Below are positions 35,104 to 42,408 of a stretch of 64,000 nt of DNA, piece by piece (the first letter of the stretch is position 1; each line of letters opens with the position of its first letter). Under the pieces are notes generated by a model. That model did no database searches. It saw nothing but the letters and a program-made list of their open reading frames with translations, and was not told the origin of the DNA. A program made the translations under genes and the position numbers. This DNA comes from Natronorubrum sediminis (lineage in GTDB: Archaea; Halobacteriota; Halobacteria; Halobacteriales; Natrialbaceae), in NCBI RefSeq assembly GCF_900108095.1, contig NZ_FNWL01000004.1, positions 62,001 through 126,000 on the forward strand, read 5' to 3'.

Positions 35104-35919
35104 TCAGCGATCGCGAAGTCGTCGAGGAATCGATCCCGTCATCGGTAGTTCCTCACAGTAGTAAGCGACCGGCTCACCCGTCGGCTCCGGCAGTCCGTTC
35201 GCCTCGAGCATCGTGTTTTCTTCGATCGTCACGTGTGCGGGCTGTAACGGCCAGGGGTCGTGTGCGATTTCACCGGCCAACACGCCACCGGCTTCGGGGG
35301 CGTAGAACCGACGGCGCTCGACGAGCCAGTGTGCGAGCGAGCCCGGCTTTGGCTCGAACACGTCCCCCTCGGGCCGGTAGCTGGCCGAGAACCGAGCGGC
35401 GGTCGTTCGCTCGAACTGTGGACGAGCACCCGCTGCGAGTTGACTCCGCACGCTCGAGAACGCGACCGACTCCTCGGTCGCCCCGACTCGCATGTGCGCG
35501 TGAAAGACCGGGAGTCTGGTCGTGCGACCGACCACACCCGCGACGAGTGGCGTTCCAACGTCAATACTGAAGAAAAACAGCGCGGGGTCGCCGCGATATC
35601 GAACGTACGTCCGTACGTTGAGTTCGGCGACCGCCGTCCGAAGCGCGGGCGGCGTTCCACGAATCCCTGCGTTCGTGAGGACGAACGGCAGGACGCTCAC
35701 CCAGGCCTCGCCATCGCGCGTCTCGAGTGTCAACTCGTCGGGGACGTGTGGACGCAACGCGTCGGGATCGACGGGCCAGTTGACGAACAATCCATTTCGC
35801 CACGTCATCGAGACGACGTGCGGTGTGATCGGTGACGATCCGTCTGCGAACGTCCATCGGAACGGGCTGGTTCGCTTCCGTGTCGGTCGTCGTGTCCGTA
35901 TCTCTTCTTGATATGTCAT
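35104..35919 (-). CDS. DUF2071 (YqjF-like) family protein
   Basis: A 271-residue protein matching the DUF2071 pattern: MTWRNGLFVNWPVDPDALRP near the start, AWVSVLPFVLTNAGIRG, then AELNVRTYVRY (the most conserved block) and FFFSIDVGTPLV. The family has an acetoacetate-decarboxylase-like beta-barrel fold, but no reaction is established. The first 25 residues are basic and Arg/Thr-rich. It is convergent with the mu-crystallin-type gene (18-bp gap). The start is the ATG at 35919. Confidence 0.88.
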   Translation of the reverse strand: MTYQEEIRTRRPTRKRTSPFRWTFADGSSPITPHVVSMTWRNGLFVNWPVDPDALRPHVPDELTLETRDGEAWVSVLPFVLTNAGIRGTPPALRTAVAELNVRTYVRYRGDPALFFFSIDVGTPLVAGVVGRTTRLPVFHAHMRVGATEESVAFSSVRSQLAAGARPQFERTTAARFSASYRPEGDVFEPKPGSLAHWLVERRRFYAPEAGGVLAGEIAHDPWPLQPAHVTIEENTMLEANGLPEPTGEPVAYYCEELPMTGSIPRRLRDR

Positions 35920-36074: not shown

Positions 36075-36860
36075 TCAGTCGGCCGGTTCGATGTCGGGGT
36101 CGCTACCGGAGCCAATCTCGGTGTCCGTCGCACTCGAGTCCGAGAACGTGACGTCGGTGCCGTCGGAGTCCCCACCCGTTCTGGCGTCTCGCAGGTCGAC
36201 CATCGCGTCCGTCGCCCGGAGGACGAGGATGCCAAATCCGATCCGCGTCGCGATGTCGAGGTACGCACCGACGAAGATGCCGCCGAAGGCGTCGAGCAAG
36301 CCAATTCCCTGCCGAGAGATGACGCCGATCACGAGGTAGCCGACCCAGAGCAACAACAACAGGTTGCGGAGCTTTCCGAAGAGCAATACCCGTTCGCCGC
36401 TCGTCTGGCCCGAACGTGCCGTTATCGGCCAGACGAGCGTGTAGATGAGCACTCCGAGGACGACGACTGTCAGTCCGTTCAGCACCAGCGCCTCCGGTGG
36501 CGTCTGGAAGACGCCGACGATCGTCACGCTGATCCACGCGAACACGAGAACGACGAGCGTGACGAGTTGTCGCCGACTCGCGCCGGCGATCATACCGGCG
36601 AGGACGACCATGATCGGCGTCGCGACGTAGTATTCGACGTACCGCGTCAACGCGACCGGCTCGCCGTCAGGCGTTGTAAACCGAAGCAACTCGAGTGACA
36701 TCCCGAGGTACGCGAGCGAGAGCGTTCCACAGATGATCGGCACCGGCAGGTAGTACCGACGGAGGCCCGCCGGCTTGCGGGCGACCCACACGAGGAACGC
36801 GACCGTCGCGAGCGCCGTGATTGCCGCACCGATTCGGTACATCTCGAGTTCGGGAATCAT
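36075..36860 (-). CDS. Sensory-rhodopsin-II-like protein lacking the retinal lysine
   Basis: A 261-residue seven-helix protein that aligns by eye with sensory rhodopsin [10 protein letters not shown] (helix B start), [10 protein letters not shown] (residues 73-82, helix C), [13 protein letters not shown] (163-175, helix F) and [18 protein letters not shown] (199-216, helix G). Where light-sensing rhodopsins have the Schiff-base Lys in LD-x-x-[TA]-K-[VI]-GFG, residue 206 is Arg (codon complement 36243-36245). The counter-ion Asp is Glu76, and helix-C Trp and helix-F Trp become Tyr77 and Gly179. Kept are Arg73, Trp172, Tyr175, Tyr200, Asp202 and Thr205. A 40-residue acidic tail follows. The gene overlaps the upstream transducer by ATGA. 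Covalent retinal binding looks impossible; transducer signalling may persist. Confidence 0.9.
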
Positions 36861-39118
36861 CGGTCCTCACCTCCGGCGTCGGAAAAGACGAGGTGTGAAC
36901 CGTCGTCGTCGCCTTCGTCTGCAGAAACGCTGAACTGGTCGACGGCGTCGGCGAGTTCCATTGCTCGGTCGTCGAGTCGAGTCGCTTCTGCGGAGACGTC
37001 GGTGATCGTCGCCGTCGTCTCTTCGGCCGCAGCAGCGACTTGCTGGGCCTGTGAGGTCGTCTCTGCGGCCACGCTCGCGACGTCTTGAACGATCGTCGCG
37101 AGCTCCTCGGTGGATGTCGCCTGTTCGTCCGTCGCCTGGTCGATTTCCTGAACACCCGCAGTCACCTGTTCGATCTCCAAGGCGATCCGATCGAGGCCGT
37201 CCGCGAGCGTTTCGACCTGGTGGGTCGCAGCGCCGATCGTTTCCTCGGTCGCCTCGATCTGTTCGACACTGGTCGTCGCCCGCTGTTGTACCGATTCGAT
37301 CATTGCTTCGACGTCGTCGACTGCTTCTTGGGTCTGCTCTGCGAGTTCCTTGACCTCGTCTGCGACGGCCTGGAATCCCTCGCCGTCTCCCGACGCGCTC
37401 CCAGAGCGGGCGGATTCGATCGCCGCGTTCAACGCCAGCATGTTCGTCTGCGCCGCGATGTCGTCGATCAGTTCGACGACCTGTTGAATCTGCTCGGCCT
37501 CGCGCTCGAGGTCGTGAATCGTCGACGCGACGGTGTCAGTTCGCTCGCCGGCATCGTGCATCTCGTCGGTGAGCTCCGTCGCCGCCACCTGGCCGTCCGT
37601 CGCCAGGTCGTCGACCTGACTCGACTGGTCTGCGATCGTACTCGTCGCCGCGGCGACTTCCTCGACGGTCGCCGACAGCTCCTTGACTTCCGTCGTCGCC
37701 GTCTCGAGGTCCTCAGCCTGCGCGGAGGACCCGTCCGAAATTTCCTGAATCGACGCGCTGACTTCCTCGCTGGCTCGGCTAATCTCCTCGGAACTCGTCT
37801 GAACTTCGGTGCTCGTGTGCGCGACATCCTGGGAGATGCGCTCGACCTGGGCCACCGCCCGTTCGAGATCCGTAATCATCTCGTTGAACGAGTCGGCGAT
37901 CTCGACCATCGCCTCGTGGTCCGTTTCGGCCTCGAGTCGCTGCTGAAGGTCCCCGCCAGCGCACGCGGACATCACGTCGCCAAAGCGCTGGGCTTCGGCC
38001 TCGAGTTCGCGGTTTCGCCGCGCGGTCTGGCGCTGGGCCTCGCGTGCGCGTTCGCGTTCGTCCTCGAGGTCTGCCATCGTCGTGTCGAGGTCGTCACGCA
38101 TCGTGCCGAAGGAGTCATAGAGACTGCCGACCTCGTCGATCCGGTTCGTCTCGAGGTCGACTGTGAGGTTGCCATCACCCATCTGTTCGGCCTTGTCTGC
38201 GAGGCGGCGGAGTTTCAGCGAGAGGTTGCCGCCGAGGACGATGCCGACGAAGCCGAGGTTGATGACGAAGATGAACGCGAGCGTCGCAACGCTCGCCGTC
38301 GCGACGTTGTGCGCGCCGAAGACGTCCGCTTCAGCGCCGTAGGTCGTGAGCTGAAGGGGTGTGTCGCCGTCTGTGATGGTCGCCGTCGTGCCAGCGTACT
38401 CCTGAGTCGCGTCGTCGGGCATGCCAGTGGCGATATCGGCGTCGTCACCCGAGAGTGCGGCGAGCACGGTCTCGTCACCCACGTCGGCTTCGGTACCGGC
38501 CGTGAGGAGCACCTCGCCGTCTCCGTCGGTGACGACCGTTCGGTAGTCGTCGTTCGGTTCGATCACGGACTCGAGGCCACTCGCCGGTGCAGAGAGGGCG
38601 ACGTATCGGTCCTCACCATCGTCCGCGGGGGCACTCACGACGTGTGAGAGGACGTCCTCGTCACTCGAGAGCGAGTCGTGTGGCGCAGTTGGTCCGTCCG
38701 TTTCGCCGTCGACGCTAATGGCGAAATCCTCGCCGGTCGCGTCGCTTGCACTGCTGGCGAGGACCTCGCCGTCGCCGTCGAGATAATGTAATTCGGTGAT
38801 TCGATCGTCGCGATCGGTTTGCACGTCTGCAAAGCGGTCGTCTATCGCGTCAGTATCACCGTCGTCGACGCTCGCGTCCGCAGCGAGACCGTCGGCCGTC
38901 GCGGCGTTCGTCTCGAGCCACTCGTCCGCGACGTCGCTTCGATCCGCTGCGTGATCGGTGAACTGCTGTTCGGTCGTCGCGCCGACTGCGCCCGACGCGT
39001 GAGCGAAAAAGAGCGCGGAGACGAAAATCGTCAACACGGCTACCGCGACGAATATCACGCCGATTTTCACACTGTACGATCGTCTGAGTCGGTCTGGGGT
39101 GTAGTCCTCGAGTGCCAT
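36857..39118 (-). CDS. HtrII-like methyl-accepting transducer
   Basis: A 753-residue receptor. Helix TM1 is at about residues 18-42, followed by an acidic outward-facing domain of about 225 residues and TM2 at about 271-297. Then come a HAMP domain ([20 protein letters not shown]), a second HAMP-like unit (about 375-430) and a long coiled-coil signalling domain whose tip reads [20 protein letters not shown], continuing to [15 protein letters not shown]. This layout and length resemble HtrII of Halobacterium (phototaxis plus chemotaxis) more than HtrI. It shares an operon with the lysine-less rhodopsin, in the usual htr-then-sop order, with ATGA overlap. It should signal through CheA/CheW, whose genes are not in this window. 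Confidence 0.92.
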
Positions 39119-39520: not shown

Positions 39521-42172
<2,652 letters not shown>

Positions 42173-42408
42173 TCTTGTATGCGTGTCCGGGCGTCGTCGC
42201 CCTATAGCTTTCCATACCACTATCGACACAGCAGGTCGCGACTGCTCGAAATTCGTGAAATCCGACGAACGGGTTCCGTCTCAGCATCCTCACTCGAGTC
42301 GAGACTGTCCCAAAGTAATTTATTTTGACAAGTAGTTGCCCCTTAAACTCACAATCTGAGGGACGGGGTAATCACCATGCCTACACACCTATTTTGTTTC
42401 TACCCGCC

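Follow-up and report, generated by a model that had tools for sequence, protein, structure and literature searches.

The opsin gene and its place in the locus

The window, by which we mean the whole 64,000-nucleotide stretch of Natronorubrum sediminis DNA analysed here, carries on its minus strand an opsin gene and the gene for its transducer, flanked by genes for leucyl-tRNA synthetase (LeuRS) and a DUF2071 protein (Table 1); an Rfam search of the window gave zero matches. The opsin frame translates with zero internal stops and matches Pfam Bac_rhodopsin (PF01036; E 2.8e-23), its closest solved relative being sensory rhodopsin II (SRII) of N. pharaonis (NpSRII; E 1.6e-20). An AlphaFold model built on an alignment of 72 diverse opsins reached a pLDDT of 92.7 (an earlier run on the 23 close orthologues, with pLDDT 59, was dropped in its favour), and its best Foldseek matches are NpSRII–HtrII complexes (target TM 0.91-0.94), with SRII and bacteriorhodopsin (BR) on top. 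Domain match, model and structural search thus agree on the seven-helix bacteriorhodopsin fold of type-1 rhodopsins; the helix-G lysine that forms the Schiff base is replaced by Arg206 in all 23 orthologues.

A first-pass annotation of the stretch had read an arginine at the retinal-lysine position, and this reading holds: the plus strand has CCG at 36243-36245, hence a CGG codon, and in a gap-free alignment Arg206 pairs with Lys205 of NpSRII (protein numbering here is NpSRII numbering plus one at the sites cited, as for Arg206 versus 205 and Glu76 versus 75). A one-base sequencing error is excluded, because a lysine codon (AAA or AAG) is two base changes away and CGG also stands at this site in a second species, whose protein is 97% identical. 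The annotation had also allowed that another lysine might bind retinal, which fails at the sequence level—no second usable lysine was found in the transmembrane (TM) helices of the 261-aa opsin, whose only lysines, K29 and K163, both lie outside them.

Upstream, the transducer gene ends in a stop codon that overlaps the opsin start (ATGA), and TM1, TM2 and the HAMP domain of its product match NpHtrII. An HtrII-type transducer lies directly upstream of the opsin in 23 of 23 genomes, the co-encoded arrangement by which SRII is recognised.

Table 1. Features of the opsin–transducer locus (window coordinates)
Feature	Coordinates	Strand	Evidence
DUF2071 gene, downstream locus edge, outside the receptor	35104..35919	(-)	23/23 genomes
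Lys-less SRII-like opsin (opsin-related protein, early-branching Arg clade), 261 aa, seven helices	36075..36860	(-)	PF01036, AlphaFold, Foldseek
Arg206 codon (CGG), retinal-lysine position	36243..36245	(-)	Arg in all 23 orthologues
Glu76 codon, equivalent of counter-ion Asp75	36633..36635	(-)	Acidic (Asp/Glu) in all 23
Cognate HtrII-type transducer, 753 aa (TM1, ectodomain, TM2, HAMP, MCP signalling domain)	36857..39118	(-)	NpHtrII 2f95_B, E 1.6e-20
Transducer MCP signalling domain	37070..37570	(-)	Domain search
Transducer HAMP domain	38087..38236	(-)	Domain search
Transducer ectodomain, about 220 aa, putatively and distantly Cache-like	38333..38998	(-)	Sequence matches
LeuRS gene, upstream locus edge, outside the receptor	39521..42229	(-)	Adjoins DUF2071 in 19 relatives

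Conservation and loss of the pair

Orthologues were found in 23 genomes (the window's included) from three Natrialbaceae genera, with Haloterrigena salina, Natrinema salsiterrestre, N. ejinorense and N. gelatinilyticum as named hosts; searching genome contigs with the single opsin recovered no relative, and searching with the orthologue alignment recovered the four named ones. The gene order LeuRS-transducer-opsin-DUF2071-AlaDH is kept in all 23. Among 22 congeners examined, 19 have LeuRS adjoining DUF2071 at a clean empty site with no opsin or transducer remnant, so the pair is either kept whole or lost whole (the remaining three did not yield the neighbouring locus).

The gene's absence from these 19 congeners is what one might expect of plain decay of a dying rhodopsin gene, but absence always takes the form of a clean removal of both genes, and the copies that are present look anything but decayed. 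None of the opsins from the 23 species has a frameshift or internal stop, such as the first-pass annotation had named as the mark of decay; dN/dS lies below 0.5 (0.15-0.48 in eleven pairs), in line with the purifying selection that it proposed to look for in close relatives; and the arginine is invariant through silent codon changes (CGG in 15, CGA in six and CGC in two orthologues). An arginine retained in this way is hardly a matter of chance. Judged from these coding-sequence comparisons, the opsin is under purifying selection, and decay is scarcely credible.

Placement among lysine-less opsins

The opsin set comprised 130 frames from Halobacteria together with NpSRII and BR, and the tree was built from 74 rows with the column of residue 205 left out. 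On this tree the Lys-less opsins form one clade (100/100), the Lys/no-Lys label needing a single change, and the window opsin does not branch among Lys-bearing sensory rhodopsins, as an SRII would. It belongs instead with haloarchaeal opsin-related proteins (ORPs)—the Lys-less, transducer-linked opsins described as a class by Becker et al. (2016, PLoS One; PMC4915679)—in one clade with ORP groups A and B that is related to the sensory opsins. Among these Lys-less haloarchaeal opsins the first to diverge is the window's Arg clade (96/94), whose sister (96/86) unites the His, hydrophobic and Halorubrum Arg groups. A Lys-to-Arg event shared with Halorubrum group A goes against the best tree, on which that group and the Arg clade are separate (starred support), although this rejection is not firm, as joining them gives an AU p of 0.0716.

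Several other opsins in the set are unusual in their own right. Four (L054, L058, L063 and L064) have His at the retinal-Lys position, Asp75 in three of the four and Tyr174 in all, and lie upstream rather than downstream of a transducer bearing the window transducer's ectodomain. A single opsin at L053:3540-4301 (-), with His205, Ala75 and Tyr174, falls on the tree between groups A/B and the early groups and is a possible intermediate. The transducer-linked opsin at L152:3485-4171 (-) is an odd canonical sensory rhodopsin that keeps Lys205 alongside Gln75 and Lys72.

A conserved charged core and signalling relay

Aligned with NpSRII, the window opsin has Glu76 for Asp75, Tyr77 for Trp76 and Gly179 for Trp178, and keeps Tyr175, Thr205 and Tyr200, all as first annotated; Arg73 is kept too. 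Across the Arg clade (NpSRII numbering), Arg72, Tyr174, Tyr199, Asp201 and Arg205 are each present in 23 of 23 members, position 75 is Asp or Glu in every one, and Thr204 is found in 20, with Ala in three species. The clade thereby retains the residues by which SRII signalling is judged, namely the Tyr174-Thr204 pair required for it and Tyr199, which forms a bond with Asn74 of HtrII between the two partners (PMC3274258).

Around this relay, the former retinal pocket has changed. Trp76 is replaced by Tyr, Trp178 by Gly, Pro175 by Leu and Val108 by Trp, each in 23/23; Phe127 is also replaced in all members, and Trp171 is mostly kept. Pocket entropy in the Arg clade is 0.75 versus 0.94 at other TM sites (P 0.14), compared with 0.68 versus 1.48 in Lys opsins (P<1e-4), indicating from residue variation that the pocket is no longer specially conserved. 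The altered pocket was considered as a conserved new ligand site and rejected as such, its conservation not exceeding that of other TM sites. Summed side-chain volumes over 16 pocket positions (2396 cubic angstroms in NpSRII, 2373 in the window opsin) would suggest remodelling rather than emptying, but this measure is crude and we set it aside as evidence.

The core sites 72/75/201/205, by contrast, are more conserved than random TM sites (entropy 0.19, P 0.019), and charge at 205 covaries with charge nearby: all Arg-205 opsins bear an acid, at 75 in the Arg clade (23/23) and at 76 in group A (13/13), whereas hydrophobic-205 opsins have Gly75/Tyr76 in 39/39 and an acid in none. From this pairing, which rests on few independent events, and from conservation and homology we infer that Arg206 has taken over the salt bridge of the protonated Schiff base.

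A cluster of this kind might itself be the sensor, titrating with pH or ions or shifting in the membrane field so as to flip the relay without any ligand. Sensing of pH, ions or membrane voltage would suit its standing as the most conserved functional feature of the protein, and also the fact that both Arg groups pair the arginine with an acid, at 75 or 76. Hydrophobic-205 ORPs, however, have lost the acid at 75 and many are still transducer-linked, so charge is dispensable for ORP signalling in general, and we consider such a sensor quite unlikely.

Retinal supply

The window's genome and 15 others encode a single PF01036 opsin, and the other seven of the 23 encode three or four. Blh (PF15461) follows this division exactly, being absent from all 16 single-opsin genomes and present in all seven multi-opsin genomes, and a tandem CrtY ORF shows the same split (0/16 versus all seven). 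The discriminating feature is the tandem form beside Blh, as TIGR03462 alone does not discriminate, matching a short single-domain ORF in 23/23. That short ORF, with a single CarR domain (about 117 aa; G000:C2:174796-175038), occurs in all 23 genomes and is distinct from the tandem CrtY beside Blh. Genomes in which the Arg-clade opsin is the only opsin therefore lack these retinal synthesis genes, and Becker et al. describe the same link for eight ORP-only species (PMC4915679). Loss of Blh and CrtY may nonetheless be compatible with retinal uptake from neighbours or with another pathway (PMC7734400).

These patterns bear on whether the protein could still be a photoreceptor, binding retinal or another carotenoid-derived chromophore non-covalently, an option that the first-pass annotation had left standing. 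Work cited by Becker et al. shows that Lys-less BR and bovine rhodopsin can function with aminated retinal compounds (PMC4915679), and the retention of Tyr174 and, mostly, of Trp171 is in keeping with this idea. The missing synthesis genes argue the other way, as do the five invariant pocket changes (Trp76, Phe127, Trp178 and Pro175 replaced, a new Trp at 108), the relaxed pocket constraint and the lack of retinal absorbance in two related ORPs that Becker et al. expressed (PMC4915679). Taken together, they make a non-covalent photoreceptor very improbable.

The transducer ectodomain and the site of sensing

All 23 Arg-clade transducers have the ectodomain, for which no family is named in Pfam or NCBIfam. 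Among the opsin-linked transducers examined, it matches only those of the four His-205 opsins (E 2e-22 to 6e-17), with no match in canonical SRII transducers or in those of groups A and B. Large MCPs whose ectodomains have sub-threshold dCache/Cache hits match it weakly in those ectodomains (down to 6e-8), and on this basis we call the ectodomain putatively Cache-like. The complex may sense via the ectodomain, the opsin or both.

If sensing were entirely the ectodomain's, the opsin could be a mere membrane scaffold that stabilises or biases the transducer. The universal presence of an ectodomain remotely resembling those of stand-alone MCPs, the ordinary conservation of the opsin pocket and the precedent of H. 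salinarum HtrII, itself a serine receptor (PMC3274258), all lend this some weight, but a scaffold would not account for the strict retention of relay residues and charged core within the opsin, and groups A and B keep their opsins although their transducers (529-614 aa) lack the ectodomain. A scaffold is, on balance, unlikely.

At the opsin–transducer contact, the equivalent of HtrII Asn74 is Asn in eight transducers and His in 15, and some members hence lack the Tyr199-Asn74 bond described for SRII. At this position (transducer residue 287), Asn is found in the window's genus and Haloterrigena and His in Natrinema, and the partner Tyr199 is invariant.

A probable retinal-independent receptor

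We consider it rather probable that the window opsin is a retinal-independent, SRII-derived receptor subunit acting with its HtrII-type transducer, with Arg206 in the role of the protonated Schiff base, the relay kept and a stimulus other than light. The first-pass annotation had seen a former photoreceptor that may now sense a ligand, membrane state or non-covalent retinal. Descent from a photoreceptor accords with the retained relay and transducer and with the purifying selection; independence from retinal and non-light signalling are what we infer. The permanently charged Arg206 would stand in for the protonated Schiff base by pairing with Asp/Glu76 and Asp202 in a buried salt bridge close to Arg73, and the core would thereby hold together even with no chromophore present. 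The stimulus would not be light but a ligand, bound either in the opsin's remodelled cavity or by the transducer's Cache-like ectodomain. It would shift helices F and G via Tyr175-Thr205 and Tyr200, and this shift would turn TM2 of the transducer and drive HAMP and CheA.

The window's genome has a CheB-CheA-CheC-CheR cluster. No archaellin match was found in this genome or in seven other clade genomes, so in archaellin-less species the output is probably other than archaellum-driven swimming. Next to the Che genes is an operon for type IV pili with T2SSF, PilB3-like T2SSE and DUF7287-7289 (L156:8419-17486 and L157:1782-8119, contig C1), and a chemosensory system without swimming possibly drives pili. 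The CheA frame (L156:9476-14230) is 1584 aa long, with a very long acidic low-complexity stretch between its phosphotransfer and kinase parts that contains repeats such as ASDDSFAEEAASDDPFGDK. The clade includes species with and without archaellins, a natural contrast for finding both stimulus and output.

More speculatively, and with considerable doubt, the Arg clade could preserve the first step from light sensor to general seven-helix receptor: the change from Lys to Arg would have frozen the charged core in a Schiff-base-like state with the relay intact, the complex would integrate an opsin-side signal with an ectodomain ligand, and later ORP groups would have lost the charges and the ectodomain. 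If true, archaea would have a GPCR-like receptor whose signalling output is known and which does without a chromophore. Because the Arg clade is the most SRII-like and earliest-branching of the haloarchaeal ORPs, with a well-mapped relay, one partner and one locus, it is the best place to test chromophore-free signalling by a type-1 opsin, a matter that bears on how a retinal photoreceptor becomes a receptor for another stimulus.

Comparison with known systems

Lysine-less opsins had been noted as known in the first-pass annotation, which left open whether a transducer-linked version was; as a class, these are the ORPs of Becker et al. (PMC4915679). According to that paper, ORP genes are transcribed in four hosts, and native ORP protein was not detected by LC-MS/MS. 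Its text describes two groups that both carry Y174L, one having Arg together with W76D and the other being hydrophobic (PMC4915679). Its tree legend lists Haloterrigena, so Arg-clade members may have been in its set, but the clade fits neither group as described in the text. As far as we found in the literature, no ligand or function has been reported for any haloarchaeal ORP. What sequence comparison adds here is the earliest ORP branch, an apparently intact relay and an ectodomain-bearing transducer.

Like other ORPs (PMC4915679), the window opsin lacks the retinal Lys, is SRII-derived, lies beside a HAMP/MCP transducer and occurs in genomes without retinal synthesis genes. Unlike them, the Arg clade combines a retained counter-ion acid with Arg72 and Tyr174, branches first, has a transducer ectodomain of roughly 220 aa and occupies one fixed chromosomal locus. 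With group A (Halorubrum) it shares Arg at 205 and a transducer directly upstream, but group A has W76D, Y174L, R72Q and W178A, where the Arg clade has Tyr76, Tyr174, Arg72 and Gly178 in 23/23, and its transducers (533-614 aa) are without the Arg-clade ectodomain. Group B (Natrialba and relatives) resembles the Arg clade in W178G, W76Y and a retained Arg72; it has Leu, Phe or Val at 205, Gly75, Y174L and a large residue at 204, so that its defining combination of hydrophobic 205 with Y174L differs from the Arg and Tyr of all 23 Arg-clade members.

Bacterial Rh-noK and freshwater FArhodopsins (PMC10308929) are likewise type-1 opsins without the retinal Lys, but they are kin to xanthorhodopsin and proteorhodopsin and have no chemotaxis transducer link, in which the window opsin differs. 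With SRII–HtrII of N. pharaonis the window pair shares the fold, the Tyr174-Thr204 relay, Tyr199 and homology in TM1, TM2 and HAMP of the transducer, and it departs from that pair in lacking the retinal Lys, in its remodelled pocket and in the large ectodomain of its transducer.
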